Assembly (NCBI RefSeq): GCF_900169565.1
Contig: NZ_LT828648.1
Coordinates: 994,876 to 1,058,875 of the forward strand
DNA length: 64,000 bases
DNA from: Nitrospira japonica
GTDB lineage: Bacteria > Nitrospirota > Nitrospiria > Nitrospirales > Nitrospiraceae
Reading direction: 5' to 3'
The position numbers and the translations under genes are program-made. Shown here one piece after another: positions 37,751 to 54,444 of this stretch (positions within the stretch are counted from its first letter, which is position 1; each line of letters starts with the position of its first letter). The notes below the pieces were generated by a model. That model had not been told where the DNA came from. It did not search any database and saw only the letters and a program-made list of their open reading frames with translations.

Positions 37751-37785
37751 GGTATGAAGCGGTGGTCTTTATCCCCGTGTCAGGC

Positions 37786-39750
37786 CTATCGGGCCTCCGA
37801 TGCCGCCTGTTCCAAGGCGCGGACGCGCGACACGAACACGTCTTCCAGGCTCGGTTGCTTTGTCCGAATACCTTGCACGGCGATGCCGCAATCGGCGAGC
37901 GCGGTTCGGATCCTGGCTTCATCCTGGACCGGATCATGCGACAAGAGGTGGATTCTTGATCCGGCCCAAGTCATATTCGACAGGCCCCTCTTCGTCAGTT
38001 GGGCCAGCGCGTGTCCTGGTTGGTCCGTCGTGATCTCTAGCAGCGGACCGGTTTCCTGCACGAGCTGTCGCTTCAACTCCGCGGGAGAACCCTCCGCGAC
38101 CAGGCGTCCCGCATACATAAGCCCCAGCCGGTCGCAATGTTCCGCTTCGCTCATGTAATGAGTCGTGATGAGGATTGCCACGGCTTCCGTGCGAACCAGG
38201 TGTGAGAGAATCTTCCAGAACCGGCGCCGACCGATGGGATCGACTCCGGAAGTCGGTTCATCCAGAAACAACACTCGTGGTTGGTGGACAAGTGCGCATC
38301 CCAGCGCAAGCCGCTGGCGCACACCCATCGGCAGCCCTCCCGTGCGATCAAATTCATAGCCGCTGAGTCCCGCCATGTCGATGATCCAGGCCATACGCTG
38401 GTTCGTGTCCTTCCGATTCAAACCGTAGATTCCGGCGAAGAGCCTGATGTTCTCGACGACCGTCAGATCAAGATAGAGAGAGAAGGCCTGCGACATGTAC
38501 CCGATGCGTTCTTTGATCGCGCCGCCCGCTTGCCGCATGTCAGCGCCGGCCACCCATCCTTGACCACCCGTGGGAGGCAGGATGCCTGTGAGCATCTTGA
38601 TGACGGTGGTCTTCCCGGCTCCGTTGGCACCGAGCAGTCCGAAAATTTCTCCGGCCTTCACTGCAAAACTCACTTGATCCACCGCCCGAAAATCTCCGAA
38701 GTCCCGGACGAGCTCCCGCGCTTCGATGGCGAGGCCGTCGAATTGACCCGTTGCGAAACCCTCACGAAGCGCGGCTTGGGCGTCGGGCTGGTCATTTCGT
38801 TCCCGCAGCAACAACGACACGACGACATCCTCCAATTCAGGATCATCGATATGAACATGTTCGATAGGCAGTTCCCCCAGGGTCTTTTTGATCTCGGCGA
38901 GTGCCGCTGGGGCCTCCGTCTCCGGTGCAAAGACGTGGATGGAAGAGCCAAGTGTTTCCACTTGTGAATAGCGTGTCTTGAGCCGTTCGACCGCGTCCGA
39001 TTGGGGGTTCGACTCGAAGGTCACGACCAGTCCTTTGGCCAAGGATCGAATCTCAGAGGGGCTGCCCGCCGTCAACATTCGGCCTTTTGACATGAATGAC
39101 AGTCTGTGAAATCGGATCGCCTCATCCATGTAGGCGGTGGACACCAGTGCCGTCATTCCCTTGGCTTCCAACCATTCCGCCAGAATAGCCCAGAAATCCC
39201 GTCGCGAGACGGGGTCTACGCCCGTAGTCGGCTCGTCCAGAATAGCCAGTTCAGGTCCATGAATCAGGGTGCAGATCAAAGCAAGCTTCTGTTTCATGCC
39301 GCCCGAAAGGTGCTTCGTCGCCCGATCACGAAATCGGTCCAGCCTGGTCATCGCCAGCAACCGGGCCTTGTCTTCCCGCAGCCGTTCCTCCGAGGCCAGT
39401 CTCACTCGTGCGAAGAAGTCGATATTTTCTTCGACCGTGAGTTCCGGATACAGGTTCAACCCCAATCCCTGCGGGAGAAAGCCAAGATGAGGCTTTACGG
39501 CTTCTGCCGCCCGCTCGGAATCGACTGTGACGCCGAAGACTTCCACGCTGCCGCTTTCATAGGACAGCACGCCAGCGATAGCCTTCATCAAACTGCTTTT
39601 CCCCGCGCCGTCCGGTCCGATCAGACCGTAAATCTCACCCTTCCTAACCGTAAGTTCCACCCCGCTCACGGCCTCGTGACGCCTGTAGCGCTTGACGAAT
39701 CCTGAGACGCGAACGATCGGGGCATCGCAACGCGGGACGGTTTCTTCCAT
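37786..39750 (-). CDS. ABC transporter ATPase with two nucleotide-binding domains
   Basis: The 654-residue protein holds two complete ABC ATPase domains. The first has Walker A GPDGAGKSS and signature LSGGMKQ; the second has Walker A GANGAGKTT and a signature-like segment GGLPMGVRQRLALG, where LSGGQ is replaced. The second site is therefore degenerate in its signature motif. Such fused ATPases (YhiH/RbbA-type N-terminal part) energise two ABC-2 permeases. The gene lies between the HlyD adaptor and the permeases. Confidence 0.92.
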   Translation of the reverse strand: MEETVPRCDAPIVRVSGFVKRYRRHEAVSGVELTVRKGEIYGLIGPDGAGKSSLMKAIAGVLSYESGSVEVFGVTVDSERAAEAVKPHLGFLPQGLGLNLYPELTVEENIDFFARVRLASEERLREDKARLLAMTRLDRFRDRATKHLSGGMKQKLALICTLIHGPELAILDEPTTGVDPVSRRDFWAILAEWLEAKGMTALVSTAYMDEAIRFHRLSFMSKGRMLTAGSPSEIRSLAKGLVVTFESNPQSDAVERLKTRYSQVETLGSSIHVFAPETEAPAALAEIKKTLGELPIEHVHIDDPELEDVVVSLLLRERNDQPDAQAALREGFATGQFDGLAIEARELVRDFGDFRAVDQVSFAVKAGEIFGLLGANGAGKTTVIKMLTGILPPTGGQGWVAGADMRQAGGAIKERIGYMSQAFSLYLDLTVVENIRLFAGIYGLNRKDTNQRMAWIIDMAGLSGYEFDRTGGLPMGVRQRLALGCALVHQPRVLFLDEPTSGVDPIGRRRFWKILSHLVRTEAVAILITTHYMSEAEHCDRLGLMYAGRLVAEGSPAELKRQLVQETGPLLEITTDQPGHALAQLTKRGLSNMTWAGSRIHLLSHDPVQDEARIRTALADCGIAVQGIRTKQPSLEDVFVSRVRALEQAASEAR

Positions 39751-39796
39751 TGGCCCTCTCTACGCGTGGAAACGTCAAGGGATCGGTACGGCCTGC

Positions 39797-40900
39797 TTAC
39801 CGAGGTCGTACCCATGCGGCGTTGTCCATCCAGCGAATGATGGCGTCGGCCGGCAACCCCGGCGTCAGGCGATGTTCCGGATTGTCTTTCACATAGAGGC
39901 GGACCGCATAAATGAGCTTGACCCGTTCATCCGGTGTTTGAACTTCCTTGGGGGTAAATTCGGCCTTGGAGGCGATGTATCGGACAGTCGCCTCGAACGG
40001 CTGATCGGGAAAGGCGTCCGTATAGATTCGAGCGGGCAAATCAAGACCGATCTTTCCGATCTGTACCTCCGGGACATAGACTTGGAGGTACAACTTGTCC
40101 AGATCGACCAATTCGAGCAATGGCGCGCCGCCTGCCACTACTTCACCGACATCCACCATGCGCGTGGTCACCGTCCCATCGGCCGGCGCCACGATTGTGA
40201 GATCCTGCAAGATGCTCCGTGCTTCGGCGAGTGCGGCATCTGCTTGATCCCGTTGTCGTTCCAACGCGGCCACCTCGGCTTCTTTGGCTCGGATCCGTTG
40301 CCACCCCAACTCGGCCTGCCCCAGCTCTTTCGTCGCATGATCCAGCGAAGCCTTCGCGACCGAAATCTCGGTGACCGCGACTTTCCACCTGGCCTCGGCT
40401 TGGTCTAGTTGCTGTTGTGAGACGGCCTGCTCCCGGATGAGAGCCCGCATGCGCCCGACGTCCTGCCGTGCTTCGTACTCGACCGCGCGGGCTTTCGCGA
40501 CCGCCGCATTTGCGCTCGCCACTTTCGCCGATGCGGCTTCGATGCTCAGTGGCACCTCCAAATTCAATACGGCAAGCTGGGTGTGAGCTGCCTCGACCTG
40601 CGCCGACTCCGTATCGACCAGGCGGGCCGCCTGATCGACTTTGGCCCGCATCTGTACATCATCCAGTCGGATGAGGACGGCGCCCTTTGTCACCTTGGCC
40701 CCTTCTCGAGCGTGGAGTTCGACGATCCGTCCGGGAAATTTACTGGCCACTGTAACGTGATCGCCTTCGATGCGACCGTTCGCTTGAATCAGCCCGTCGG
40801 GCAAACTGCCTTGTCCGATGAAGCGGGCGAGCACGTAACCCGAAACACCCACAAGGGCCGCGCCGAGTACGAGGACGAGATACGTCCGAGAGATCTTCAT
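39797..40900 (-). CDS. HlyD-family membrane fusion protein
   Basis: The 367-residue adaptor has one N-terminal membrane anchor (about 6-25), a biotinyl-lipoyl half domain, a long alpha-helical hairpin rich in Ala, Glu and Lys (about 80-205), the second lipoyl half (IVAPADGTVTTRMVDVGEVV), and a beta-barrel domain. It links the inner-membrane ABC exporter to an outer-membrane channel; no TolC-like gene is in the operon. I choose the ATG at 40900, giving MKISRTYLVL, over the frame start at 41038. It is the first gene of the operon. Confidence 0.88.
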   Translation of the reverse strand: MKISRTYLVLVLGAALVGVSGYVLARFIGQGSLPDGLIQANGRIEGDHVTVASKFPGRIVELHAREGAKVTKGAVLIRLDDVQMRAKVDQAARLVDTESAQVEAAHTQLAVLNLEVPLSIEAASAKVASANAAVAKARAVEYEARQDVGRMRALIREQAVSQQQLDQAEARWKVAVTEISVAKASLDHATKELGQAELGWQRIRAKEAEVAALERQRDQADAALAEARSILQDLTIVAPADGTVTTRMVDVGEVVAGGAPLLELVDLDKLYLQVYVPEVQIGKIGLDLPARIYTDAFPDQPFEATVRYIASKAEFTPKEVQTPDERVKLIYAVRLYVKDNPEHRLTPGLPADAIIRWMDNAAWVRPR

Positions 40901-41208
40901 AGACAAGAGCATCCGACGATCATGCACTGAGATACGAAACGCGCCGGGATTCTTCCCATCCGCCGGTGTGTCGCACCACATGACAGATTGCGGTTGGAAC
41001 TGTAACACAAGACGAGGCGCTAAGGACGATATCGTCACCTCCGTCTCATGATCCAGGCAGGCAAGGGGTAGAGTTCACGCCCGTCGTCCGGTGATATGAA
41101 AAGACACGGTTCTCAAGGGAATTAGCTCGTACAGGTCGAGCCAATCAAATTTCGTTGGCATATTTGACGGATAGTAAGGCGCCAATTCCGTCGGAGGTAG
41201 GCTTTCCG
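40901..41208. other. Intergenic region upstream of the exporter operon
   Basis: About 300 bases between the exporter operon and the end of the copper-enzyme cluster. I found no sigma-54 pattern. A poor sigma-70-like pair on the minus strand (TTGATT, 17 bases, CTAATT, near 41150) is not worth annotating. No gene seen. Confidence 0.35.
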
Positions 41209-41682
41209 CTATGGACGTACACTGAATTTGAACATGTCGTGGCAGGTCGTGCAGCGGGCGGTCATGCTCGACAGGCGCTGCAGTATCTGTTGAGAATTTT
41301 CCTTCTGCGCAACCGCGTCCGCCAATGCATCCATGTCTCGATGGATCGACATGCCGATCTGTTTGAACGCCAGCGGCAGTTTCTCCATCAGCGCCGGATT
41401 GACGTCTGCAGCCAGCCCCATACCGGCCGCGCGAGCCGCTTGTTCTATTTGTTGGCGATCCGCAGGCTGATCCTGGCCTCCCAGGCCAGTCACTATTCCG
41501 TGCACGGCCTTGAGGAGGTGCCGCATCTCACCGAGCACGAGGTCCCGTTCATCCGCGCCCAGGAAGATCTCGGTACGACCGTCGGTTCCCGGCTTCGTCC
41601 AGCCCACGACAAAAAACCACATGCCCGCGGCGATCGTCGCCGTCCACAATGCCAATGAGACAGTGCCGATGCTCAATTTCAT
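41209..41682 (-). CDS. Cytochrome c' -like (class II) periplasmic cytochrome
   Basis: The 157-residue protein has a signal or anchor helix (about 5-27), then a helical domain. The single heme motif CTTCH (144-148) lies near the C-terminus, which is the layout of class II cytochromes such as cytochrome c' and c556. These have a four-helix bundle and bind heme at the end. It is the last gene of the multicopper oxidase cluster, 119 bases after the second SUMF1-fold gene, and may accept or donate electrons for the oxidase. Confidence 0.82.
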   Translation of the reverse strand: MKLSIGTVSLALWTATIAAGMWFFVVGWTKPGTDGRTEIFLGADERDLVLGEMRHLLKAVHGIVTGLGGQDQPADRQQIEQAARAAGMGLAADVNPALMEKLPLAFKQIGMSIHRDMDALADAVAQKENSQQILQRLSSMTARCTTCHDMFKFSVRP

Positions 41683-41801
41683 TTCACGCCTCGAGAAATT
41701 CGTGAAAGCTGTGGCAACGACTCAGCGGTCCGGTTCGAGCGTTGGGTTGACGGCAGTCCGCCACTCGCTGCTGTTGCACCGCGGAACATTTCCGCCTGCT
41801 G

Positions 41802-42782
41802 TTACGGAGCGATGTGCGAAACCTTCGTGGCCGACGCATCCGGCGCATCCTTTGCGCAACGGAAACCCATCCAGTTGATTTTGGTATTGGGATCGGTGCC
41901 ATTACGCATCGCCGCGCGCATTGTAGTCGTACTGTCCATCCAGCCGCCGCCGCGGAACGCCTTCTGGGTTCCGGTCTCCGGACCTTTGGGATTCCGGTCC
42001 GGCGCGGCAGCGTAGTAGTCTTTGTCGTACCAATCAGACACCCATTCCGACACGTTCCCCAGCATCTGAAAGGCGCCGTACGGGCTGACACCGTTCTCGT
42101 ACTTATCGACCGAAATGATCGGCGGATAGAGCAGCAGCCGCTCGGGACGGTCCCGTACCGGGCCTGACAGACCCGTGCGGCCGAAGTTCACGCGGCTCAA
42201 TCCGGCCGGTTGATTGCCCCAGGGGTTGATCCGGCCGTCTTCGCCTCGGGCGGCCTTTTCCCATTCCGCTTCCGTGGGGAGACGTGTACCGGCCCACCGG
42301 CAGTAGGCATCCGCGTCGTACCAGCTGACGTGCATGATGGGATGATGGGCCATCGTTTCCTGGAAATTCCCGCCGTCGTAGCGCCAATCCAGTTGCGGCG
42401 GGCGGCCGGTGACGAGCACGAACTTGAGATACTCCAGCGCCGTCACTTCGTACTTGCCGATTTCGAAAGCATCCAGATAGATGCGCCGCTGCGGAAGCTC
42501 CGACCGGTACGCGACCCGGTCGATCTTCTTGTCGCTTCCCATCACGAACTCGCCCGCCGGCACCAGGACCATCTCATCCTTGGCCTTCCAGTGCGCGACT
42601 CGTTCGGCGGCCAGCTGCTTTCCCTGTTCGGTCCATTCCACGGTGATGTCCTGCGTGTCCAGCCCCCATGTGATGTGAGAGGTCATGTGAGCCAGACCGG
42701 CTACGGCGAACGCAAGGATCGCCGCATGGATGATTCGGTGGGATATCGTCCGGCCTTTTCGAGCGACGGTCTTTTGTTCCAT
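41802..42782 (-). CDS. Exported SUMF1/FGE-fold protein without catalytic cysteines
   Basis: The 326-residue protein has an N-terminal membrane or signal segment (about 17-35) and a formylglycine-generating-enzyme (SUMF1) fold: VPAGEFVMGSD, then YEVTALEYLKF, WYDADAYCRWAG, RLPTEAEWEKAARG and the final MGFRCA. The cysteine pair needed for formylglycine formation is absent in the segment FRGGGWMDSTTTMRAAMR. It is unlikely to modify sulfatases. SUMF1-fold relatives such as NirV accompany copper nitrite reductases; by analogy this protein may help assemble or partner the copper oxidase. A paralogue lies 44 bases upstream. Confidence 0.88.
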   Translation of the reverse strand: MEQKTVARKGRTISHRIIHAAILAFAVAGLAHMTSHITWGLDTQDITVEWTEQGKQLAAERVAHWKAKDEMVLVPAGEFVMGSDKKIDRVAYRSELPQRRIYLDAFEIGKYEVTALEYLKFVLVTGRPPQLDWRYDGGNFQETMAHHPIMHVSWYDADAYCRWAGTRLPTEAEWEKAARGEDGRINPWGNQPAGLSRVNFGRTGLSGPVRDRPERLLLYPPIISVDKYENGVSPYGAFQMLGNVSEWVSDWYDKDYYAAAPDRNPKGPETGTQKAFRGGGWMDSTTTMRAAMRNGTDPNTKINWMGFRCAKDAPDASATKVSHIAP

Positions 42783-42826
42783 GGTGCGGCCTCCTTGTAA
42801 CGGATCTTGAAGATTGTTTCGACGCC

Positions 42827-43765
42827 CTATTCGTGCTGCGTTACGCGTACAGGCGGGGAAATGGCCCCTATTTCCGATTGAACGTCATGCGTGATTCCGG
42901 ATTCGGGGGTCATCCCTTTTGCACAGCGGAATCCCGTGAGGTAGCTCCGGCGGTCCGGCGCGCCGGCATTCCGGCCGGCCGAACGAGCCACTTCCGGATC
43001 CTCGTTCCAGGACCCTCCTCGAAACACCTTGTCTGTTCCCCATTGGGGACCGGTCGGATTGCGGTTCTCGTCGCTCCGGTAGTAGTCCGGGTCGAACCAA
43101 TCGGCGACCCATTCACTGACGTTCCCCGCCAGCTGATGGACTCCGTAGGGGCTGACGCCGCGATCATAGCGGTTGACGTTGGCGAGAGGAGGATACTTGA
43201 ATCCCCGCTTCGAGCCTGGGTGCGCGATGTTGCTCTTGAGCCAGCCGGCAGGCTCATTCCCCCATGGGAACACCCGCCCGTCTTCGCCCCTTGCCGCTTT
43301 CTCCCACTCCGCTTCCGTGGGCAGCCGCTTCCCCGCCCACCGGCAGTACGCATCGGCGTCATGCCAACTCACATTGATCACGGGGTGAAGGGCGGCCTTT
43401 TCCGGGAAGGGACTCTCGCGCCAGAACTGCGGCCAATCCGCTCCCCTGGCCAGGACATAGCGAAGGTAGTCCACGTTCGAGACTTCGTACTTGTCGATCT
43501 CAAACCCGTCCACGTACACGTTGTGCTGAGGTTGCTCCTGCGGTCCTGCCGCTCTGTCGAGCTTCGGATCGCTCCCCATGACGAACCAGCCGGCCGGTAC
43601 CTCGACCATGCCTTCCGGCGTGTCCATGGAAGCCAGCCGCTCCGGTCCGTCCAGAGGCGTCCAGAGCGGCGGTTCCTTGGAGGACTCGTGATCGGCCATT
43701 GCGTGGCTGCTCATGGCGAGACAGAACAACCACGCGGCTATGAGCTGAACGGGGGTAATCCCCAT
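42827..43765 (-). CDS. Exported SUMF1/FGE-fold protein without catalytic cysteines
   Basis: The 312-residue protein has a signal peptide (about 1-24) and the SUMF1 fold (VPAGWFVMGSD, YEVSNVDYLRYV, WHDADAYCRWAG, RLPTEAEWEKAARG, GFRCAKG). As in its neighbour, the catalytic cysteines are missing (FRGGSWNEDPEVARSAGR). The two proteins are clear paralogues from a tandem duplication. It follows the blue-copper-like gene by 25 bases. Role inferred only from the neighbourhood: accessory protein of the multicopper oxidase cluster. Confidence 0.88.
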   Translation of the reverse strand: MGITPVQLIAAWLFCLAMSSHAMADHESSKEPPLWTPLDGPERLASMDTPEGMVEVPAGWFVMGSDPKLDRAAGPQEQPQHNVYVDGFEIDKYEVSNVDYLRYVLARGADWPQFWRESPFPEKAALHPVINVSWHDADAYCRWAGKRLPTEAEWEKAARGEDGRVFPWGNEPAGWLKSNIAHPGSKRGFKYPPLANVNRYDRGVSPYGVHQLAGNVSEWVADWFDPDYYRSDENRNPTGPQWGTDKVFRGGSWNEDPEVARSAGRNAGAPDRRSYLTGFRCAKGMTPESGITHDVQSEIGAISPPVRVTQHE

Positions 43766-43790
43766 ACCCGTCTATCCCCTTATCCCCTCC

Positions 43791-44717
43791 TCAGTGGTCC
43801 TGCTTCTCGACTATCGGTTCAATTTCTTTCTGCGCTTCTTCGGTGACGTTATAACGGACATACGCATGATCCAGTACTTCGTTCGCGTACAGCCGCCCCG
43901 TGGGAGCCGGGACCGCGATACGGATTTCCGTCGTCGCCTTCGAGTCGATGGTCACGGTTTGCTCAACCGAGCTTCGAATGTAGGGATGCCAGACGACCAG
44001 CTTATAGGTACCGGGCGGCACATCGGTCATGGTGAACCGGCCTTGCTCGTCTGTCTTGGCGAAGTACGGATTCGTCGCGGCGAGCCCCCAGCTCTCCATG
44101 TAGGCGTGAAAGCCGCATTGCATGACGAAGATCCGGCGGCCCTTGCTGAGATTGACCAATTGCTTCATCGGCGCGCCGGCCATGTGCCGATGGTACAGCG
44201 CGGCGTCGCTCCGATCCTTATAATTGTGCGGGTGCTGCGGATTCATCGGCAGCGGCACGTTGAACAAGACGCGCGGACCCAGGTGCGAGGTTTCATACGC
44301 TTGAATGTCGTGCATGACCGGGTCCATGTTGACGACCGTCACCGTCTGATCGTCCCTCACGACGGTCGTGAACGGGTCGAAGAGGCAGTCTTTCGCCTCG
44401 ATTTGCGGCAACCCCCTGTCATCGAACGGCTTGCCTTTGTCGACTCCCTCCAAATACACCACCACCTCACGAAACTCGCCGATTGGCCCGACCTGAAACG
44501 GTTGCAGGATGCGCCAGCCCTGTCCGTCGGAAATGCGCCCGCAATAGAACGGGTCCGGCAACGTCGTGAGGTTGTATCCTTTCGGCTTGGGGACATTCCC
44601 TTCAAGCGTCACAGCCCCGGTCAGCGTGCCGCCGTCCGCGACCGTGATCTCTTCGTAGGCATGGACGGGAGTGCCCAGGATTATCGCGATCAGTGTTACC
44701 GTAAGATATTTGATCAT
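43791..44717 (-). CDS. Periplasmic protein with blue-copper-like site and regulatory-like domain
   Basis: The 308-residue exported protein (signal about 1-20) has an N-terminal beta domain and a C-terminal carboxypeptidase regulatory-like domain (TDEQGRFTMTDVPPGTYKL). The first domain contains H136 (PVMHDIQAYE) and C201-x2-H204-x2-M207 (VMQCGFHAYMESW). This is the H...C..H..M pattern of type 1 copper sites. It could carry electrons between the large oxidase and the cytochrome. It is separated from the oxidase gene by 119 bases that hold an intrinsic terminator, so its expression may be lower than that of the oxidase. Confidence 0.82.
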   Translation of the reverse strand: MIKYLTVTLIAIILGTPVHAYEEITVADGGTLTGAVTLEGNVPKPKGYNLTTLPDPFYCGRISDGQGWRILQPFQVGPIGEFREVVVYLEGVDKGKPFDDRGLPQIEAKDCLFDPFTTVVRDDQTVTVVNMDPVMHDIQAYETSHLGPRVLFNVPLPMNPQHPHNYKDRSDAALYHRHMAGAPMKQLVNLSKGRRIFVMQCGFHAYMESWGLAATNPYFAKTDEQGRFTMTDVPPGTYKLVVWHPYIRSSVEQTVTIDSKATTEIRIAVPAPTGRLYANEVLDHAYVRYNVTEEAQKEIEPIVEKQDH

Positions 44718-44765
44718 CGTCCTTCCTCCGGCCTTTTCGTAATTCCAACGGTGGCTTCAACCTTT

Positions 44766-44811
44766 AAAAAACACGATGAGGGAGCTACGTGCTACAGGCA
44801 GCTCCCCCATC
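44766..44811 (-). terminator. Intrinsic terminator after the multicopper oxidase gene
   Basis: On the minus strand a hairpin (44811-44775; outer GATG/CATC, inner GGGAGCT/AGCTCCC) is followed by GTG and a run of six T (44771-44766). It lies 26 bases after the oxidase stop. As genes of the same direction follow at once, it may be a partial terminator that lowers expression of the accessory genes. Confidence 0.7.
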
Positions 44812-44836
44812 AGGTATTACGACATGACCAACCGCC

Positions 44837-47800
44837 TTACTTCATAGCGGTTGGAACGGCCTGCGGCTGCGGCGTGATGTCAGCATGCTTGGCTCCCATG
44901 CTCGCCGCGCCCAGCGGTTGAATCCGTGAGTCGCCGACCGGCAACACCCGGAGATACCCCCATTGCCCTGATTGCGTGTAGGGCAGCCGATTGTTCGACC
45001 ACACGAAGTCTCCGGCCTGGCGATACGGTCCACCTGCTCCGCCGCGGATGAAGACATCGAGGGTCTCGGATCCGGCATACTCCACCACACTGATCATGTC
45101 GGCGCCCGGCATGTAGGGCTCGATCGGCCATTCATGGCCTTCGACTCCGAACATCCCGTTTTGTTCGCTATTGGCCCCAATCACGTGGATGCGGACCGGG
45201 TCGCCGGCATGCGCCTCGATTAGAGGCGTGGACGGATCTTCCGGTTTGTCCACGACGCAGGGTTGGAAAATCTTACCCAGTGAACAACCTTGCTCTTCTC
45301 GGAGCTTGTACGGTTCGGCGCGGTAGTTCACCGAGGTCAATCCCGCCACGTTCTGCACATAGGGCATGAACGCAGTCCCGATGATGTTGTCCTCGTCCTG
45401 GAAGTAGAGGGCGACATCACGATAGTTCCGCTTGCCCACGTTCTCCGGCAGGCTGGCGTCGACGATGACGTCGGCCCTCCAGGAATTCTTTTGCGAGAGG
45501 TCGGCCCCTGTGACAGGGTCACGGTACTGCGATCCCTTCGGACCGACGATAATGGCCCCGTACAATCCGTTACGAGGATTGACGACGATGTTGCCGCCAT
45601 CCCATACCAGCGACGTCGTTTCCTTGTTGGCAGGATGCGCGTAGTAGGTATAGGCACGGCTCTCGCCGGGACCCACCGTCTGATCGCCGCCATTGTTGCC
45701 GACGTTCAGGCCCTGGCTGTCTTTCGGATCGAAGGCTAATCCAGGGGCGAAGAAGGACGCCCGGCTGGCCTTCATCTTGTTCTTCAGATTCACCTTGATG
45801 CAGTCGCCCAGGTTGGCCCGCAGCGTCAGCGGATGCGGGGTCGTCCCGCTGGACACCGTCGTGGCTTCCTCTTCGAGCGCGAAGATCTTGCCATCAGGCA
45901 TGGTCATTTCGATCTTCCGCTCGAAATCCACCTCGATCACGTCCGGCGCCTTCTGGTTGAGTTTCATCGGGCGGTCCAACGCCACGACGTTGAAGTTCTT
46001 TACCGGAGCGTCGGCCGGACATACGGAACTGGGAGTGGCGGGAATTCCGAGTGGATTGGTCCCCTTCGGGAGCGGCTTGAGATCCGCCACTTCCTTATCG
46101 AGGACGCGCACGATGCCCCATCCGCCTTCGGCGAAGTGGGAGCTTCGGCCGTTGAAGTGAATGTAGTCTCCCGGCATGCCCTGGAATCCTCCTGCCTTGG
46201 TCACGAGGTCGTACCGCTCGGCGATCCCGACGTGAATCGAGTTCTTCCGATTGGCGTCCGCCGCGTACCGTTCCGTGAGGAAGGTATGGCCGGAGATCGT
46301 CCAGACGTGCGATTCGTTCATCAGCTGGTGCAACAGGCGGAACACCATGGTGTCCCCCGTATATGCCCGCAATAGCGGAGTATCAGGATCCCCGTGGATC
46401 GCGCTGCTGAACAGTTTCGACGTGTCCGGGTTGTTCGAGAGGCGTTGCGCGAACGGCTCCGCGCGGAAGTTGAACCCGCTGCCGGTCGTATGCGTGCCGC
46501 CGTTGATGTACTTGTTCGGGGCGTTCATGATCTTCTCGGGCATTTGGAACGACACCGTCTTGCCCGCTTCCAGGGCCACCTCGATCGGCTGTCCGGGAGG
46601 ATTGCCGGCTTCGATGATGTTGACGGTGTGCGGCACTGTGTCGTGGATGGAGACCATCAATTCACGGAAGCTGCCGCTCACGCCGGCCCCGATCGGCTCG
46701 TTGCTGTGAATGTCCGCGATCGGACCGCTGTAGACGAGCTTGCCGTTCTTCGGATCGTGATAGGTTGATCCGAACGGCTCGACCAGCGTCACGCCGAACC
46801 CGCCGTGCGGCCAGGTCGTCGCGCCGAACGCGTGGTCATGCCAGAACACGGTTCCCATGTCGACGTCCACCCACCACCGATAGCGGACGAACTCCGGCGA
46901 CACGAGATCGTTGGCCGGGTGGTTGTGCTTCAGCGGTTTAAAGAATGTCACCTGATCGCCCTTGATGTCCTTGATACGGGCAACCTCGGAGCAGCTCTTG
47001 TCGCGCGGCAGCGAGGCAGTGGCGTCGTTACCGTTCTCCAGGCAATCCATGCCGACCATGACTTCGGTGTTCACATGGAACGCCGTGGCGCCCGGAGCCA
47101 TCTGGATCTTGATGCTGGTGGCGCCTACTTTGGCCCCTCCGACGAGCTTGGCGACCATCGGCGCAGGCAGCCCGTGCTTTGTTTTCTTGCCGAACATGGT
47201 GAACGGGCGTACCGACATCTCATATTCGAACCCGGAGATGACGCCGTCCGAGTTCCCCGTGTCGAACTGGAAGAAATGAGGATGGATGTTGATCTTGGAC
47301 GACTGGAAGTTGGTGTAATCGTCGTCGTCCCATTCGCTGGTGAGCAGGAGGTCCACGCAGTCGTACACGTTGGCACGAATGACCGCGGGAAGCTTGAGGT
47401 CGTCGTTCGCTCTGATCAGACGCTCCTCTTCGTGCAGCACGTAGATTAGGCCGTCCTTGTCCACGATCGCTGGCTCTTTGCCCTGTTTCTTGGCGAGCGT
47501 GATCGGCATCCGGGCGAAGTGAATGTTGTAGGACTTTTGATTGGCATTGTCGGGACAGAGACTCCAACGGCCCTGTTCGCCCGGCTTGGCCGGCTCGGAG
47601 GTCCGTTCACCGTTGGCGTCCTGGTGGATCGGCTCCAGCCAAGGTGCGCCGCTGTGATTCGCCGAGAAGGGCACACGCTTCCCAAAGTGCGGCTTGAAGA
47701 GCGGCCAGGCCAGTTTCCCCGTCGTCGGATCGAACAGGATGGCCGGTCTGGTACTGTCATCCCACTTGGCCGCCCACTGATACTTGGGATTCTGCGCGGT

Positions 47801-49771
47801 GCTCTCGCGTTCGCCACGGGCAATGTTGCCGTCCCACTTCCAGTCCCACACGGTCGAATCGTAGGACAGAATCTGGCCCTTCTCGTCGTTTGTGTGGCCC
47901 GGTTGTCCTTGTGCAGGGACGAACATCTCGACCCAATCCTTGATGTTCACGATAACCGGATCGGATTTCCAGTTGGTCTTCTGGCTCTTGTCGACGATCT
48001 TGAAGGTCTTGCCGAACCAATCCAGGGTGGTCCCGATCAGCTTGTCGGACGAGACGCCTTGCTTGATGCGGCCCTTCCGGTCAGGTAACTCCTGTAGATC
48101 CGGCATCGAATCGGTGTGGGTTGAGCCGACCTGCAGCGTATTGTAAAAGCGGCCGTAACCCCACATGCCCGCCACATAATGATGGGCAACGTGGCAATGA
48201 TAGAGAAACTCGCCCGCCAAATGCTGGCAGCCGCCTCCGCCGCATTCCGGCTCCAGGTCCAAGGCCTCAGACGGCCCGATGACTTCCACATCCACGCGGT
48301 CCGACTTGGTTCGGACGACGGGATATTTCACCGGGCCGTCTTGGCCCATGGCCCAGAGATTGTTGGGTTCTGTTCCCGGGCTCCGCTGCCAGCGGATCGA
48401 TCCGCTGTGGGGATGATGGGAGTGGAACACCTCGGAACCGCCGTGCACTAGCCGCCATTTGACCGGATCGCCCAGATAACCGCGCGCGATCGTGGTGGGC
48501 GTGTCGCCGAAGGTGTAGGCGCTATAGGCCATCGATTCGTCTTCAAAGCCAAAATATTCATGCTGTAGGTGCATCTGATCGATTCCGAACGGCTCGCTGC
48601 GATAGTTGATGGCGCGGCCGCCCGGACGGTAGGCATCCGTCAGCGGATCGCGTTGCGGCAGGAAGTCGCCTTTCTTGTTCAATGGGCGGAAGGCTTCGTC
48701 GCCGATCTCATGGTAGAAGAGCACGAACTCGCGAAAGTCTGGACCGCTCCCGTTGTCGATGTTGACCTGCCAGCCGCTCCTGACTGACTTGTCGGGGCCG
48801 GTACCCAGCGAATCGAGATACTTGGAGCCTTTGGGTTCGACGATGAAGGCTCCGAAGAGGCCCAAGACCGTCAATTCACGGTCATGGCTGTAGGAGTGGA
48901 ATTGCCGCACGCCTTCCTGCATGTGTGGGTGGATATACCATTCAAATTCCTGGGCGTTGCCCGGCGCGACGATGGAATCAGGATTCGTCGTCGTCGCCGG
49001 CCTGCCCGTTGCGCTGACGATCATGCTGGAGGCTTGGATGAACAGACTTCCATCCTCGCTTTCCATCTGATTGCGGAGCGTCATCTTGACACAGTCGCCT
49101 TGGTTGGCGCGGAGCACCAGCGGTTGAATGACGTCGCCCTGCAGCCCCGTGGAGACGGAACCGGGATCGTATCCGTCTTGTTCGCGGGATGCCTTGTTCT
49201 TGGATTCCTCGGCGCGGGCCTTCACGAGGTCCTCAGTCAGCACATACATATAGCCGGGATAGTAGTCGAGCCAGCGGTTCAACGTGATCTCGATATTGAT
49301 CATCGATACATCGTAGGTCTTCGTCGGTACGTTGGCCGGACACTTGCCTCCCGACGACATGACCGGCTCACCCTTGCTTGAATCCGTCATGAGCAGGAAG
49401 CTGCTGCCGTCCTGCCCCATGTACTGGTGCATCATGGACATGTTATTGAACGCGCCGGAGGTCTGCTGCGCCTGCGCGTCCTTCTGGGCCTGCTCTTCAA
49501 GCCGGCGCATCAGGCGATGGTGCTGAAGCTCCATCTTTTCCGATCGTTCAGGTCGTCCTTCGATCGTGTCCTCCACGACCGTCTGGCCCTTCAACTGCTG
49601 GGTCCAGCCAGGCAACGCCACTTGGGTGGCATGGCCTTCGTGCGATCCTGCATCTCCCGCAACTGATGGCCATGGCGTCGCCATGAGGCTGGCCGCCAGC
49701 AGCACGCTGTGCAGCAGAGCCACGGTGCCGGGATGTTTCCGGCTGCGTTGAGGTTGAACTAGAAAAGACAT
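44837..49771 (-). CDS. Giant multidomain multicopper oxidase (MofA-like)
   Basis: The 1644-residue exported protein (signal about 16-40) contains at least six cupredoxin-like domains. Copper motifs seen: HSYSH (about 290), HSHHPHSG (about 450) and HCHVAHHYVAGMWG (about 525) in the first pair of domains; NIHPHFFQF (about 827) and WHDH (about 975) in the middle; ESHVWTISGH (about 1155). The HCH-x3-H-x4-M motif gives a type 1 site next to trinuclear ligands. The last two domains keep only vestiges (GVEGHEW near 1540). Size and plan recall MofA, the putative manganese oxidase of Leptothrix, and MnxG. GGGGAGG precedes the ATG. Cluster partners are a blue-copper-like protein, two SUMF1-fold proteins and a cytochrome. 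The substrate (Mn, Fe, Cu or an organic) is unproven. Confidence 0.9.
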   Translation of the reverse strand: MSFLVQPQRSRKHPGTVALLHSVLLAASLMATPWPSVAGDAGSHEGHATQVALPGWTQQLKGQTVVEDTIEGRPERSEKMELQHHRLMRRLEEQAQKDAQAQQTSGAFNNMSMMHQYMGQDGSSFLLMTDSSKGEPVMSSGGKCPANVPTKTYDVSMINIEITLNRWLDYYPGYMYVLTEDLVKARAEESKNKASREQDGYDPGSVSTGLQGDVIQPLVLRANQGDCVKMTLRNQMESEDGSLFIQASSMIVSATGRPATTTNPDSIVAPGNAQEFEWYIHPHMQEGVRQFHSYSHDRELTVLGLFGAFIVEPKGSKYLDSLGTGPDKSVRSGWQVNIDNGSGPDFREFVLFYHEIGDEAFRPLNKKGDFLPQRDPLTDAYRPGGRAINYRSEPFGIDQMHLQHEYFGFEDESMAYSAYTFGDTPTTIARGYLGDPVKWRLVHGGSEVFHSHHPHSGSIRWQRSPGTEPNNLWAMGQDGPVKYPVVRTKSDRVDVEVIGPSEALDLEPECGGGGCQHLAGEFLYHCHVAHHYVAGMWGYGRFYNTLQVGSTHTDSMPDLQELPDRKGRIKQGVSSDKLIGTTLDWFGKTFKIVDKSQKTNWKSDPVIVNIKDWVEMFVPAQGQPGHTNDEKGQILSYDSTVWDWKWDGNIARGERESTAQNPKYQWAAKWDDSTRPAILFDPTTGKLAWPLFKPHFGKRVPFSANHSGAPWLEPIHQDANGERTSEPAKPGEQGRWSLCPDNANQKSYNIHFARMPITLAKKQGKEPAIVDKDGLIYVLHEEERLIRANDDLKLPAVIRANVYDCVDLLLTSEWDDDDYTNFQSSKINIHPHFFQFDTGNSDGVISGFEYEMSVRPFTMFGKKTKHGLPAPMVAKLVGGAKVGATSIKIQMAPGATAFHVNTEVMVGMDCLENGNDATASLPRDKSCSEVARIKDIKGDQVTFFKPLKHNHPANDLVSPEFVRYRWWVDVDMGTVFWHDHAFGATTWPHGGFGVTLVEPFGSTYHDPKNGKLVYSGPIADIHSNEPIGAGVSGSFRELMVSIHDTVPHTVNIIEAGNPPGQPIEVALEAGKTVSFQMPEKIMNAPNKYINGGTHTTGSGFNFRAEPFAQRLSNNPDTSKLFSSAIHGDPDTPLLRAYTGDTMVFRLLHQLMNESHVWTISGHTFLTERYAADANRKNSIHVGIAERYDLVTKAGGFQGMPGDYIHFNGRSSHFAEGGWGIVRVLDKEVADLKPLPKGTNPLGIPATPSSVCPADAPVKNFNVVALDRPMKLNQKAPDVIEVDFERKIEMTMPDGKIFALEEEATTVSSGTTPHPLTLRANLGDCIKVNLKNKMKASRASFFAPGLAFDPKDSQGLNVGNNGGDQTVGPGESRAYTYYAHPANKETTSLVWDGGNIVVNPRNGLYGAIIVGPKGSQYRDPVTGADLSQKNSWRADVIVDASLPENVGKRNYRDVALYFQDEDNIIGTAFMPYVQNVAGLTSVNYRAEPYKLREEQGCSLGKIFQPCVVDKPEDPSTPLIEAHAGDPVRIHVIGANSEQNGMFGVEGHEWPIEPYMPGADMISVVEYAGSETLDVFIRGGAGGPYRQAGDFVWSNNRLPYTQSGQWGYLRVLPVGDSRIQPLGAASMGAKHADITPQPQAVPTAMK

Positions 49772-49996
49772 ACGGCCTCCCCTGTTGTACCCGCCTCTTC
49801 GGCGGCTGGTTGAAACACGTTTCCTGTCAATCCTTCAATCAATGACTTACTCCTGGTTCCATGTAGTCAGAGCACCGGCCTCCGAGCGACCTCCGGCCAA
49901 CAACCGGGAAAAGGATAGAGCTGGTGAAGGCTTCCTTCTTTCGAAGGAGGGTCATTCGGAGGCCGGTCCTAATCACCCGGGCCTTCACCAGCGCTC
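49772..49996 (-). ncRNA. Structured 5' leader of the oxidase mRNA (candidate cis-regulatory RNA)
   Basis: The predicted transcript start (near 49996) lies just before a leader with two perfect 12-bp inverted repeats. GCTGGTGAAGGC (49920-49931) pairs with 49981-49992, and ACCGGCCTCCGA (49874-49885) pairs with 49956-49967. The repeats interleave (B', A', B, A in the transcript), the topology of a pseudoknot or of two exclusive stems. A small hairpin CCTTC-TTTC-GAAGG (34-38 and 43-47 after 49900) lies inside. A further stem (CCGCC/GGCGG, near 49788-49803) precedes the ribosome site. This matches no riboswitch class that I recognise. Confidence 0.45.
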
Positions 49997-50005
49997 CGCT
50001 CATAG

Positions 50006-50021
50006 CGCAATAGATATGCCG
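50006..50021 (-). promoter_or_regulatory. Sigma-54 promoter of the multicopper oxidase gene
   Basis: The minus strand reads CGGCATATCTATTGCG, with GG at 50020-50019 and GC at 50008-50007 (N10). GGCA and TTGC are consensus. It is the only strong promoter candidate that I see in the 500-base region upstream of the oxidase. Confidence 0.6.
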
Positions 50022-50085
50022 ATCGTCTTCTTGGCGTTGTTCTGAAGAAAGTCGCTGTGAATCGAGAGCTTGAATAATGTGATCT

Positions 50086-50200
50086 TGTCCGGACAGCCGA
50101 TACACTTCCGGGTAGTTCTTCTAGCTTTTTGGACAAAAATCCCTAGGTCATGTGGAAATTCAAAAATATCGCCAGCTTCGGCTGTCCAATTTGTTAGACA
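50086..50200. promoter_or_regulatory. Inverted GGACAGCCG repeats upstream of the oxidase promoter
   Basis: TGTCCGGACA (50086-50095) is a perfect palindrome that overlaps GGACAGCCG (50091-50099). The reverse copy CGGCTGTCC occurs at 50179-50187, within TGTCC-N8-AGACA (50183-50200). The sites lie about 70 and 160 bp upstream of the -24 element at 50020. They are candidate binding sites for the activator encoded at 50857-52218 or another regulator. Confidence 0.4.
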
Positions 50201-50856: not shown

Positions 50857-52218
50857 TTACGTCAGTCCGTGCTCGCGCAATTTATTATAAAGGCTTGACC
50901 GGCTGATCTTCAGCAATTTGGCCGCCTTTACGCGATTCCCTGACATAGCGCTCAGTGCCTCTCCGATGCGGAGTCGTTCTGCCTGCCGCGCCGCGGACCG
51001 CAGGTCCTCTGTTTTTGGCCAGGACGGCTTGGCCGCAAGATCCGAACAGATCAGGGCTGGTCCGGCTGTCGTGACCACGGCTCGCTCGATGTAATGCTGC
51101 AGTTCGCGCACATTACCCGGCCACGCCGCTTCGCTGAGCGTCTGCAGCACTTGGGATGAAACCGTTCGCATTGGCTGATGGTGACGTTCGCAAGACGCCG
51201 CGAGAAACCGTTTGACCAGCAAGGGGATGTCCTCGCGGCGGTCGCGCAGGGATGGCAAGAACAAGGGCAGAACCGCGAGGCGATAATACAGGTCTTGGCG
51301 GAAGGCCTTGGCTCCGACGAGTTCGGCGAGGTCCTTGTTCGTGGCCGAGACGACCCGCGCGTGGATCCTGATCCGCTCGGTGCTTCCCACCGGCCGGATC
51401 TCGCTTTCTTGAAGGACGCGGAGCAGTTTGGCCTGGAACGTCGGCGTCGTGTCACCGATCTCGTCGAGAAAGATCGTTCCGTCTTCAGCCGTCTGAAACA
51501 GTCCACGTTTGTCAGAGATTGCGCCCGTGAAGGCTCCGCGGACATGTCCGAACAACTCACTCTCCAGCAGGGTCTCGGGTAAGGATCCGCAATCCACCAC
51601 GACGAAGGGCCGGCTCTTGCGTTCGCTCAACTCATGAATGGTCCGTGCGACTAATTCCTTACCGGTTCCGCTTTCTCCTTGGATGAGCACGGTGGCGGAA
51701 CTGTCCGCTACCAGCCTGATCATGTCGAACAACTCCCGCATCGCGGGGCTGTGCCCGACCAGGCCGCACAGGGTGTCGTGCCGGGTGTTGGAAACGGAGG
51801 GCTGGCGCGAGATCCGGCTCTGCGATTCGTTATGCTTGAACAACACCAGCATGGACGTCGTCTCTCCCAGGCTCGAAGCGAGGGGAAAGGCCCGACGCAT
51901 TCCGCAAGGAGTGTCGTCCTCTTCAGGGAAGCAAACCATGGAGGCATCCGGCGTCTCGATGACCTTGAGGGCGGGGCAGGTCTCGCAGGCTTGGCGTCGA
52001 TGGGCGAAGGCTTGATAGCACTTGGCGTCCGGTTGCTCGTCTGCGGACGCGGTCGACCAGGCGGCATCATTGGCATACATGACGTTGAAATGGCGGTCCA
52101 TCACCGCCACGCGATCGGTCAAACCTCCGGCCAGCGATCTGATGGCGTCCAGTCGGGCATTCAGAACGGGATCGGCGATGGAAGGATTGTCGACAGAGTC
52201 TTGCTGAGATCCGGCCAT
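50857..52218 (-). CDS. Sigma-54-dependent activator with cysteine-rich PAS domain
   Basis: The 453-residue protein is a bacterial enhancer-binding protein. It has a PAS-like sensor (about 25-130), an AAA+ domain with Walker A GESGTGKE (181-188) and sigma-54 contact loop GAFTGA (228-233), and a Fis-type helix-turn-helix (NRVKAAKLLKISRSSLYNKL). The PAS has five cysteines (C67, C78, C81, C96, C105) in the pattern CYQAF-x7-CETCP, suggesting metal, heme or redox sensing. It has no receiver domain. It lies beside the oxidase control region and follows a receiver gene by 44 bases. I infer that it controls some of the sigma-54 promoters here. Confidence 0.93.
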   Translation of the reverse strand: MAGSQQDSVDNPSIADPVLNARLDAIRSLAGGLTDRVAVMDRHFNVMYANDAAWSTASADEQPDAKCYQAFAHRRQACETCPALKVIETPDASMVCFPEEDDTPCGMRRAFPLASSLGETTSMLVLFKHNESQSRISRQPSVSNTRHDTLCGLVGHSPAMRELFDMIRLVADSSATVLIQGESGTGKELVARTIHELSERKSRPFVVVDCGSLPETLLESELFGHVRGAFTGAISDKRGLFQTAEDGTIFLDEIGDTTPTFQAKLLRVLQESEIRPVGSTERIRIHARVVSATNKDLAELVGAKAFRQDLYYRLAVLPLFLPSLRDRREDIPLLVKRFLAASCERHHQPMRTVSSQVLQTLSEAAWPGNVRELQHYIERAVVTTAGPALICSDLAAKPSWPKTEDLRSAARQAERLRIGEALSAMSGNRVKAAKLLKISRSSLYNKLREHGLT

Positions 52219-52262: not shown

Positions 52263-52673
52263 TCAGCCCTGGCTTCTAGGGAGACTCTGAGCATCGAGCA
52301 GTAACTGCTCGATGCAGGCCTTCAGCTCTCCGACCCTGACCGGCTTGTCGAAGTACACGGTCGCTCCTGCCTGAAGCACGGCGGCCTTGACGGCCGGATC
52401 GCCGAAGGCGGTCATCACGACGATGGGGCAGGCGGGTGCCACCGTGCGCAGGCGACTGATGTATTCTGCCCCTCCGGCCGGCATCCGGAGGTCGGTCAGG
52501 ATGAGGTCGGGTACGGATTGCAGGACCGCTTGAAACGCCTCGTCTCCGTCCCGCGCCTCACGAAGTTGATAGCCGGCGCTCCAGAATTCATCGCACAACA
52601 GGCTGCGCATCTCCCGGTCGTCTTCGACGATCAACACGACCTCCGCATGGCGGTGAAGCACGGACTCCTCCAT
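52263..52673 (-). CDS. Stand-alone receiver domain (response regulator)
   Basis: The 136-residue protein is a single CheY-like receiver with acidic pocket VEDD (16-19), phospho-acceptor D61 (LILTDLRMP) and K110 (VYFDKP). No output domain follows, so it acts by protein contact. The frame is open for 165 more codons upstream, but that part overlaps the histidine kinase gene. The sigma-54 promoter at 52712-52727 places the transcript start near 52702 and supports the ATG at 52671-52673. The activator gene follows, so receiver and activator are co-expressed and may work together. Confidence 0.85.
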   Translation of the reverse strand: MEESVLHRHAEVVLIVEDDREMRSLLCDEFWSAGYQLREARDGDEAFQAVLQSVPDLILTDLRMPAGGAEYISRLRTVAPACPIVVMTAFGDPAVKAAVLQAGATVYFDKPVRVGELKACIEQLLLDAQSLPRSQG

Positions 52674-52711
52674 TGTCAGGCCGTTCAGGATGCAGTCTGT
52701 AGGCCTTAACG

Positions 52712-52727
52712 AGCAAGGCACGTGCCT
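52712..52727 (-). promoter_or_regulatory. Sigma-54 promoter of the receiver/activator pair
   Basis: The minus strand reads AGGCACGTGCCTTGCT, with GG at 52726-52725 and GC at 52714-52713. It differs from the consensus TGGCACG-N4-TTGCT at one base only. The predicted leader is about 29 bases. It implies that an activator gene is itself under sigma-54 control. Confidence 0.7.
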
Positions 52728-52821
52728 GCTACGAGAGAGCTGAAGAAGTTCGGAATTTCTCGGCGCGGTGTCGCCGAATACAAGAAGACTGACGAGAAAG
52801 ACGACAGACAGCCATCCGATG

Positions 52822-52866: not shown

Positions 52867-54444
52867 CTATGCCGGAGACAAGGCGTTGCCGCCGTCCGAG
52901 GCTTTCGGCAGGAGGATTGTAAACGTGGTGCCCTTACCGGGCTCGCTCTGTACCGTGATGGATCCCTGATGCTCATCGACGATGCCCTTGACGACCGTGA
53001 GACCGAGCCCGGTGCCTTTTCCGAACTCCTTCGTCGTAAAGAAGGGTTCGAATATCCGTCCGACAATCTCTGTCGGGATGCCTTGGCCCGTATCAGAGAC
53101 GGACAAGGCCACATGGCCAGTGCGAGGCTCAAGCCCGATCCGCAAGGTGCCCTGTTCCGGCATGGCATGAAGTGCGTTCATGATGAGATTGATCAGCACC
53201 TGGCTGATCTGGTCGGCATCGGCCCACACGGCGGGGCAGAGCGGGGCAAGATTCAACTCGAGGCTGGTGTGGGTTTTCGCCAGTCGTTCATGAAACATCT
53301 CGACCGTGTTTTCCACGACAGGCTTCAGATCGAGGGGGCCGCGCATGGGTGGTTTCCGTCTGGTAAAGGCCAGAAGTTGGTTCATGACTCTCGTGATCCG
53401 TTCGACCTGAACGATGATCGTCTGGAGGCCTTTCCTGACCGGCTCTTCCCGGACGCGATCCAGTAAATATTCCGCGCGTCCGAGAATGACGTTCATCGGT
53501 GTGCCGATCTCGTGCGCCATGCCGGAGGCAACGGTGCCGAGTTCGGCAATGCGCTCGGTCCGGCGGAGCTGCTCTTCCATGCGTCGCCGCTCGGTGAGAT
53601 CGCGGAGAATGACCGTGTAGAATCGCTTGCCCTCGACCGCGACTTGCGAGATCGAGGCTTCGACCGGAAACTCCTCCCCGCCGGCCTTGAGGCCCGTGAC
53701 CGTTCCGAGCGCGCCCATCTTACGGGCTGTCACGCCGGATCCTCCGAAGATCTCCACATGGCGCCGGTGTGCCTCCCTGAAGCGGGCGGGAATGAAGCGA
53801 TCGAGCGGTTGCCCGAGGGCGTCCGCCCTCGAACACCCGAACATCCGCTCGGCCGCGTGATTGAACATGACGATGCACTGGCCGTCGTCCAGCGTCAGGA
53901 TGGCGTCCATCGCGGCTTGAATGATCCCCTCCAGCCGGAGTTGCGTGATCAGGTAGCGTTCCTCCGCTTGCCGCCGGCCGGCGAGCGCGCCCATCACGGC
54001 CGTCTCCGCATAGGCCCGTGCTTCTTGCGCGGCCGTCAGAAGCCCTTGGGTGTCTGCCCGTTCGGCCTTCATCGCCTCCAGAACCTTGTGATGTCCGATC
54101 TCCGCCGTCTCAAGAGAAGATGTCGCGCGCTTGTGCCGGTCCAAGAGCCAGGCGATCAACCAGAGCACGCCCGTGCCCAGGGTCCGGTTCACCAATGCAT
54201 AGGGAGGTGCGTCGGCAGGATTGAATGCCAGATCCGCCCAGAGCAACGCAGTGGCGGCTGTGCAGACCACGACCGGGGCGCGTTCGCGGTCCGAGAAAAA
54301 CGTCAGGAGGAGCGGGATGACGTAGAGTACGGAGACGGCGATGCCCGAAGGAGCCAAGCCATCGGCAAGAAAAATGCCCAGGGTCAGGACAAGGGGCATG
54401 GTCAGGGGGATGGGACGGGACAACGCACTGCCGACGTCGTTCAT
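52867..54444 (-). CDS. Membrane histidine kinase with PAS domain (NtrB type)
   Basis: The 525-residue kinase has an N-terminal membrane domain of about three or four helices (15-115), a short coiled coil, a PAS domain (about 170-295), the HisKA box MAHEIGTPMNVILGRAEYLL with the phospho-histidine, and an HATPase domain ending DTGQGIPTEIVGRIFEPFFTTKE. It lies 32 bases after the NtrC-type regulator gene and is its probable partner. The stand-alone receiver downstream could also take phosphate from it. The sequence resembles kinases of ZraS/AtoS type. Confidence 0.92.
   Translation of the reverse strand: MNDVGSALSRPIPLTMPLVLTLGIFLADGLAPSGIAVSVLYVIPLLLTFFSDRERAPVVVCTAATALLWADLAFNPADAPPYALVNRTLGTGVLWLIAWLLDRHKRATSSLETAEIGHHKVLEAMKAERADTQGLLTAAQEARAYAETAVMGALAGRRQAEERYLITQLRLEGIIQAAMDAILTLDDGQCIVMFNHAAERMFGCSRADALGQPLDRFIPARFREAHRRHVEIFGGSGVTARKMGALGTVTGLKAGGEEFPVEASISQVAVEGKRFYTVILRDLTERRRMEEQLRRTERIAELGTVASGMAHEIGTPMNVILGRAEYLLDRVREEPVRKGLQTIIVQVERITRVMNQLLAFTRRKPPMRGPLDLKPVVENTVEMFHERLAKTHTSLELNLAPLCPAVWADADQISQVLINLIMNALHAMPEQGTLRIGLEPRTGHVALSVSDTGQGIPTEIVGRIFEPFFTTKEFGKGTGLGLTVVKGIVDEHQGSITVQSEPGKGTTFTILLPKASDGGNALSPA

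Follow-up and report, generated by a model that had tools for sequence, protein, structure and literature searches.

A structured leader RNA and a sigma-54-type promoter precede a giant MnxG-like multicopper oxidase gene in Nitrospira japonica

Introduction

What does a very large exported copper enzyme do in a Nitrospira cell, and what controls when it is made? The question is raised by a 64,000-nucleotide stretch of the Nitrospira japonica genome (assembly GCF_900169565.1, contig NZ_LT828648.1, positions 994,876 to 1,058,875 of the forward strand; hereafter the window, in whose numbering coordinates are given unless a genome or locus is named), which encodes on its minus strand a 1644-residue multicopper oxidase (MCO), here MCO-A (44837..49771), behind a conserved leader. 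Nitrospira are major nitrite oxidisers in soils, freshwater and treatment plants. A sequence-only reading of the window had suggested that the oxidase may head a metal-oxidising or electron-harvesting system of five genes, and knew of no described system with that set. For the oxidase itself a lack of description is not borne out: in the part of Lücker 2013 (PMC3578206) drawn on here, an MCO of the same family is noted in Nitrospira and Nitrospina, is similar to the manganese oxidase of Bacillus SG-1 and is conserved between both nitrite-oxidiser lineages, with a suggested role in Mn(III)-based defence against reactive oxygen species. That MCO is a gene of the nxr cluster, of the type we call MCO-C below, and the same part of the paper does not describe the separate MCO-A gene set, its regulation or its RNA. 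We regard MCO-A as an already noticed member of the MnxG kind, and its leader RNA as the new part.

A structured RNA before the oxidase gene

The leader block upstream of the MCO gene is conserved across Nitrospira, with a sigma-54 site first and an RNA element about 12 nt further on. The element is a 73-nt three-way junction (49920..49992, minus strand) composed of helix P1 (GCUGGUGAAGG paired with CCUUCACCAGC), helix P2, which carries a near-invariant loop, and helix P3, which ends in a GNRA tetraloop in 27 of 47 leaders, a feature that favours an RNA over a DNA element. Its folding z-score in the window is -6.36. Compensatory changes are found in P1, P2 and P3. Of the 22 base pairs, 12 have changed on both sides in a set of 47 sequences (A1), with pairing intact in 97.7% of cells, and 15 have done so in a set of 30 hits to the RNA model (A4), with pairing intact in 97.0%. 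The rows of A4 were fitted to that model and include a few shared with A1; in A4 every one of the four P2 pairs varies. None of 500 shuffles reached the values of either set. Many leaders are closely related, so all leader counts given here are non-independent.

No covariance model of Rfam 15 matched the window locus at a limit of E 5 or, in five other loci, the leader element at a limit of E 1, and a search of the literature for a described Nitrospira leader RNA found none. Among 396 sampled Nitrospirota genomes, listed from near to far kin, our RNA model found the element in 113, every one of them in Nitrospirales; 39 genomes without it, Nitrospinota included, gave only two weak hits when searched again with laxer filters. 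The RNA-like cores in the loci that we fetched all have an MCO gene within 1.2 kb downstream (52/52), and the element also precedes divergent and duplicated MCO copies. We are highly confident that this leader RNA is a real and apparently undescribed class of structured RNA, and consider it well supported. Two side observations concern its occurrence: one genome has MCO genes in tandem (L227, L229, L230 and L241), every copy being preceded by a leader RNA of its own, and a weak match to the RNA model (27.8 bits, E 0.02; L158, 6386-6472) that keeps the loop GGACCGGCCTCC lies before the MCO-C gene of Ca. N. defluvii.

The promoter is of the sigma-54 -24/-12 type (CGGCATATCTATTGCG, GG-N10-GC; 50006..50021, minus strand), and a GG-N10-GC site lies 49-53 nt before the fixed leader core in 68 of 71 leaders. 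Upstream of it is the gene of an NtrC-type, sigma-54-dependent activator with a Fis-type helix-turn-helix (50857..52218, minus strand), the likely regulator of the MCO promoter; a fixed GG-N10-GC site and a nearby NtrC-type activator, the two marks by which we recognise such a promoter, are thus both present. Further upstream lie an open reading frame (ORF) with a response-regulator domain (~52263-52751) and a PAS histidine kinase (52867..54444, minus strand).

Loop, ribosome-binding site and decoy

In diverged leader copies, only the motif GGACYGGCCUCC in the P2 loop is near-fixed, and it resembles an anti-Shine-Dalgarno sequence. The loop of the window (GGACCGGCCTCCGAA; 49955..49969, minus strand) is complementary both to the ribosome-binding site (RBS) of MCO-A, GGAGGCC (49774..49780, minus strand; predicted duplex -18.7 kcal/mol), and to an intervening decoy or anti-loop (CTCGGAGGCCGGTGC; 49872..49886, minus strand), whose predicted duplex of -30.4 kcal/mol outcompetes that with the RBS. 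GGAGGCC is the RBS of most leader-bearing MCO genes; the predicted loop-RBS energy has a median of -19.0 kcal/mol, whereas background genes reach -13.8 kcal/mol (p 7e-14) and MCOs of other lineages -11.5 kcal/mol. Perfect complements of the loop of at least 10 nt occur between element and RBS in 53 of 105 leaders and in 6 of 2100 shuffles. The loop has two possible partners, the RBS and a more stable decoy, and this points to a switch by which the RBS is either repressed or left free. We tentatively propose, at slightly less than an even chance, that the undescribed RNA class of the giant MnxG-like MCOs of Nitrospirales acts as such a translational switch and may co-ordinate paralogues in trans. 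Known RBS-sequestering leader RNAs (translational riboregulators) share with it a structured 5' element whose loop can pair with the RBS or with a second partner, but Rfam 15 contains no family that matches, and this RNA is found only before Nitrospirales MCO genes. Just after the decoy, the window also holds a seven-codon ATG-to-TGA frame (MEPGVSH; 49839-49862, minus strand), which is not seen in N. defluvii and so is probably due to chance.

The element could instead be a ligand-binding riboswitch, or a small RNA acting in trans that also represses the paralogue MCO-B, which we consider somewhat unlikely. Its three-way junction with a GNRA loop would suit a riboswitch, but the junction nucleotides are variable and only the pairing loop is near-invariant, unlike an aptamer core. 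Trans action is hinted at by MCO-B itself: the gene lacks a leader, yet its RBS is often a perfect 12-nt complement of the loop; a 15-mer, GGAGGCCRGTCCATG, marks the MCO-B start in 7 of 8 genomes searched. Against this, the MCO-B RBS of N. japonica is mismatched, an A facing a C of the loop, and in two genomes (G125 and G133) a leaderless MCO keeps a 12-nt complementary RBS where the RNA was not found, which leaves room for some other cause of the extended RBS; trans action as its sole cause is weakened accordingly. Copies of the loop core elsewhere in the N. japonica genome were no more frequent than in a reversed-pattern control (23 vs 31).

Identity and copper sites of the oxidase

MCO-A matches the Pfam families Cu-oxidase_3 and Cu-oxidase. 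Its best solved relative in a sequence search of the PDB is Bacillus MnxG (9bxa, E 4.8e-86); profile searches with two parts of the protein strengthened the match (E 2.9e-92 and 4.2e-119), and Foldseek placed 9bxa at rank 1 for AlphaFold2 half-models, with ceruloplasmin next for the C-terminal half. The sequence repeats found by comparison with MnxG, together with the two half-models (pLDDT 68 and 79), fit three two-domain modules and hence six cupredoxin domains, in line with the at least six read from the sequence beforehand. MnxG is the nearest solved relative in both sequence and fold, which bears out a giant MnxG-like oxidase in a nitrifier, the host being a Nitrospira, and does not support the MofA label of the sequence-only reading; with 112 bits against the NCBIfam MnxG equivalog cut-off of 3100, MCO-A is a relative of MnxG and no equivalog.

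Four motifs, HSHHPH from residue 450, HCHVAHHYVAGM from 525, IHPHF from 829 and WHDH from 977, supply what we take, from standard knowledge of MCOs, to be the ligands of the type 1 (T1) and trinuclear copper sites. The T1 ligands H450, C526, H531 and M536, like the trinuclear histidines 453, 455, 525, 527, 830, 832, 978 and 980, are invariant in 135 of 135 aligned homologues, which puts the copper sites far beyond chance. Loss of trinuclear ligands is contradicted by these eight invariant histidines, and the HCH site and trinuclear-type histidine pairs of the original reading stand; a complete T1 set of two His, Cys and Met with eight trinuclear His identifies the protein as an MCO. Because the HxxHxH and HCH motifs lie in domain 2 (D2) and both HxH motifs in domain 3 (D3), the protein has one full T1/trinuclear unit, located between D2 and D3; domains 4 and 6 lack the T1 cysteine in their sequences. 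The AlphaFold2 model of the N-terminal half is poor around T1 (pLDDT < 50 across much of domain 2), so the copper sites were judged by motifs and conservation and the geometry of the model was left unused.

The MnxG of Bacillus sp. PL-12 (9bxa, the H340A complex) has the same three two-domain modules, with HxxHxH/HCH in D2 and HxH in D3, and H531 of MCO-A aligns with an Ala of its H340A mutant chain. It differs in being 1217 rather than 1644 residues long, MCO-A having an N-terminal extension and inserts, in its roughly 20% identity over the fold alignment, and in gene neighbourhood and regulation. Ceruloplasmin and coagulation factors V and VIII, the next-best fold matches, share the plan of six cupredoxin domains but only ~10-12% identity; the trinuclear site of ceruloplasmin sits between D1 and D6, whereas MCO-A has one T1 site and its trinuclear site at D2/D3. 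Set against MCO-A by description, the MofA/OmpB oxidases of Leptothrix and Geobacter are likewise very large exported MCOs with cytochrome-type neighbours (PMC5566968), but the conserved partners of MCO-A do not include mofB, mofC or SCO-type partners.

Distribution and paralogues

The MCO family occurs in 163 of the 396 Nitrospirota genomes, all within class Nitrospiria, where 163 of 164 sampled genomes carry it (the only unmatched one listed is a metagenome-assembled genome), and in 52 of 77 Nitrospinota genomes. The MCO tree separates MCO-A, MCO-B, MCO-C, a divergent type, and a clade of Nitrospinota and other Nitrospiria. MCOs in three loci labelled Opitutales, Nitrosomonas and Poseidoniales (L058, L064 and L080) are Nitrospirales- or Nitrospinota-like, and their contigs are probably mis-binned. 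We sought mention of the MCO in texts on the N. marina proteome and the N. moscoviensis transcriptome and found none.

The complete 4.08 Mb genome of N. japonica (G000) holds three MCO paralogues, and one of these, MCO-C, lies beside an nxrAB operon, together with genes for a sigma-54 activator and a cupredoxin. There (G000:C1:759646-764436 and 751015-755796; L085 and L083), an nxrAB copy is followed on the same strand by a CHASE3 protein, the sigma-54 activator, a small cupredoxin and MCO-C. Separately, two tandem carboxypeptidase-regulatory-domain proteins, similar to the copper protein found downstream of MCO-A (CUP, below), follow MCO-B (L084, 6276-8232).

The nxr-linked neighbourhood might mean that the family is accessory to nitrite oxidation, handling electrons, nitrite or nitric oxide around the nitrite oxidoreductase. 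Besides the nxrAB-linked MCO-C of N. japonica, three further genomes (G060, G218 and G293) have an MCO close downstream of nxrB, the family spans both nitrite-oxidising phyla, and the part of Lücker 2013 cited above (PMC3578206) places the MCO inside the nxr cluster of Ca. N. defluvii and N. gracilis. However, all 20 Nitrospiria genomes outside Nitrospirales carry an MCO while none of the 20 has NxrB at the threshold used, an absence that is weaker evidence than a presence would be since NxrB is often missing from draft genomes, and MCO-A itself is near no nxr copy. We judge an accessory role distinctly unlikely. Use of the MCO to mark nitrite oxidation was likewise rejected, because these Nitrospiria carry it without NxrB.

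The downstream genes

All five genes named by the sequence-only reading are indeed on the minus strand. Directly after MCO-A comes a 308-residue exported blue-copper-like protein with a C-terminal carboxypeptidase-regulatory-like domain (CUP; 43791..44717), whose His/Cys/His/Met set of H136, C201, H204 and M207, recognised earlier as a blue-copper site, is conserved in 142-143 of 143 homologues; its CxxHxxM spacing is shorter than that of plastocyanin. Two proteins of the SUMF1 fold, again as first read, follow (FGE1, 42827..43765, and FGE2, 41802..42782), each matching Pfam FGE-sulfatase at E ~1e-57. The copper-binding Cys pair of formylglycine-generating enzymes, expected after an RGGS motif, was sought in homologues of the two and found in 0/41 and 0/38, and formylglycine-type catalysis by them was rejected. 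The fifth protein resembles class II cytochrome c (41209..41682) and has the expected CTTCH at its C-terminus, but scores 25.9 bits with Pfam Cytochrom_C_2, just under the cut-off of 26.5.

Counted over Nitrospira loci with enough sequence for each gene, CUP is directly downstream of MCO-A in 35 of 42, FGE1 is present in 36 of 39 and FGE2 in 32 of 35, whereas the cytochrome is present in only 2 of 32; the conserved core is therefore four genes (MCO, CUP, FGE1 and FGE2), with the cytochrome as an accessory neighbour. The spacer between MCO-A and CUP (44718..44836, minus strand) contains a GC-rich hairpin followed by TTTTTT, and a terminator-like hairpin and T-run of this kind follow the MCO at 30 of 60 loci and appear in none of 40 shuffles, so that the MCO and the downstream genes are probably not made in equimolar amounts. 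The oxidase keeps a neighbourhood of its own, but the five-gene operon is rejected, the cytochrome being rarely present and the hairpin splitting MCO from the rest. Beyond the cytochrome, the window holds a HlyD-type adaptor, an RbbA-like double-ATPase ABC protein and two permease-like ORFs (35430-41038), which are rarely next to MCO-A elsewhere (HlyD in 3/31 loci, ABC in 1/31).

This neighbourhood bears on two other accounts of the oxidase. One is copper homeostasis, with MCO-A as a periplasmic cuprous oxidase that would act like CueO alongside copper-binding partners. Oxidation of Cu(I) is common among MCOs, all the neighbours look exported and one of them is a copper-site protein. We regard this as unlikely, because the domain plan is that of MnxG and ceruloplasmin rather than the three-domain CueO, and no copper exporter was identified within the conserved cluster. 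In lithotrophic electron harvesting, MCO-A would oxidise Mn(II) or Fe(II) and pass electrons through the blue-copper protein and the cytochrome to respiration. The relationship to MnxG and the presence of the family throughout Nitrospiria agree with this, as do the two novel MCOs in each genome of the Mn-oxidising Ca. Manganitrophaceae (PMC9040806), which we presume to be of the same family. Yet a complete trinuclear site implies direct reduction of O2, which leaves no clear route to energy conservation (an argument also made in PMC9040806), the cytochrome is not conserved, and the family runs throughout nitrite oxidisers that grow on nitrite. Lithotrophy by this enzyme is, in our estimate, very unlikely.

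Discussion

The explanation that we prefer for the locus as a whole, to which we give an even chance, is a protective MnxG-type oxidase under two layers of control, a sigma-54 promoter and a leader-RNA switch. Homology and the invariant ligands show that the locus encodes a periplasmic MnxG-type MCO. Its one T1 copper most likely accepts electrons one at a time from a reduced metal such as Mn(II), Fe(II) or Cu(I), and O2 would be reduced at the trinuclear site between domains 2 and 3; the role of the enzyme is probably protective metal or redox homeostasis and not the energy source of the cell. The conserved neighbourhood makes CUP a plausible electron partner and suggests a part in assembly or binding for the SUMF1-fold proteins. 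The sigma-54 promoter is probably served by the upstream NtrC-type activator, and the mRNA would start at the base of the three-way junction, a structure for which covariation speaks directly. The complementarity described above suggests that translation would be repressed when the loop is on the RBS, and that the RBS would be freed when the loop moves to the stronger upstream decoy; the terminator-like hairpin after the MCO probably lowers the output of the downstream genes.

Several observations weigh against this explanation, beside the relatedness of the leaders and the complementary RBS of G125 and G133. The proposed substrates derive solely from MnxG, a relative only ~20% identical in the fold alignment. 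The NtrC-type activator gene is not always adjacent, lying upstream of MCO-A in 19 of 36 loci, and a clear sigma-54 site is absent from some later-duplicated MCO copies. The loop barely varies, so covariation cannot test its partners, and these pairings show none; the decoy, moreover, is degenerate in some leaders (e.g. L009, L017 and L019).

With a leader RNA of its own and a sigma-54 promoter, the MCO gene offers handles on when the enzyme is made, and the inducing signal would point to its substrate. The spread of the family through the class suggests that the MCO predates nitrite oxidation in the Nitrospiria lineage or is not tied to it, and its distribution bears on how Nitrospiria became high-potential lithotrophs.

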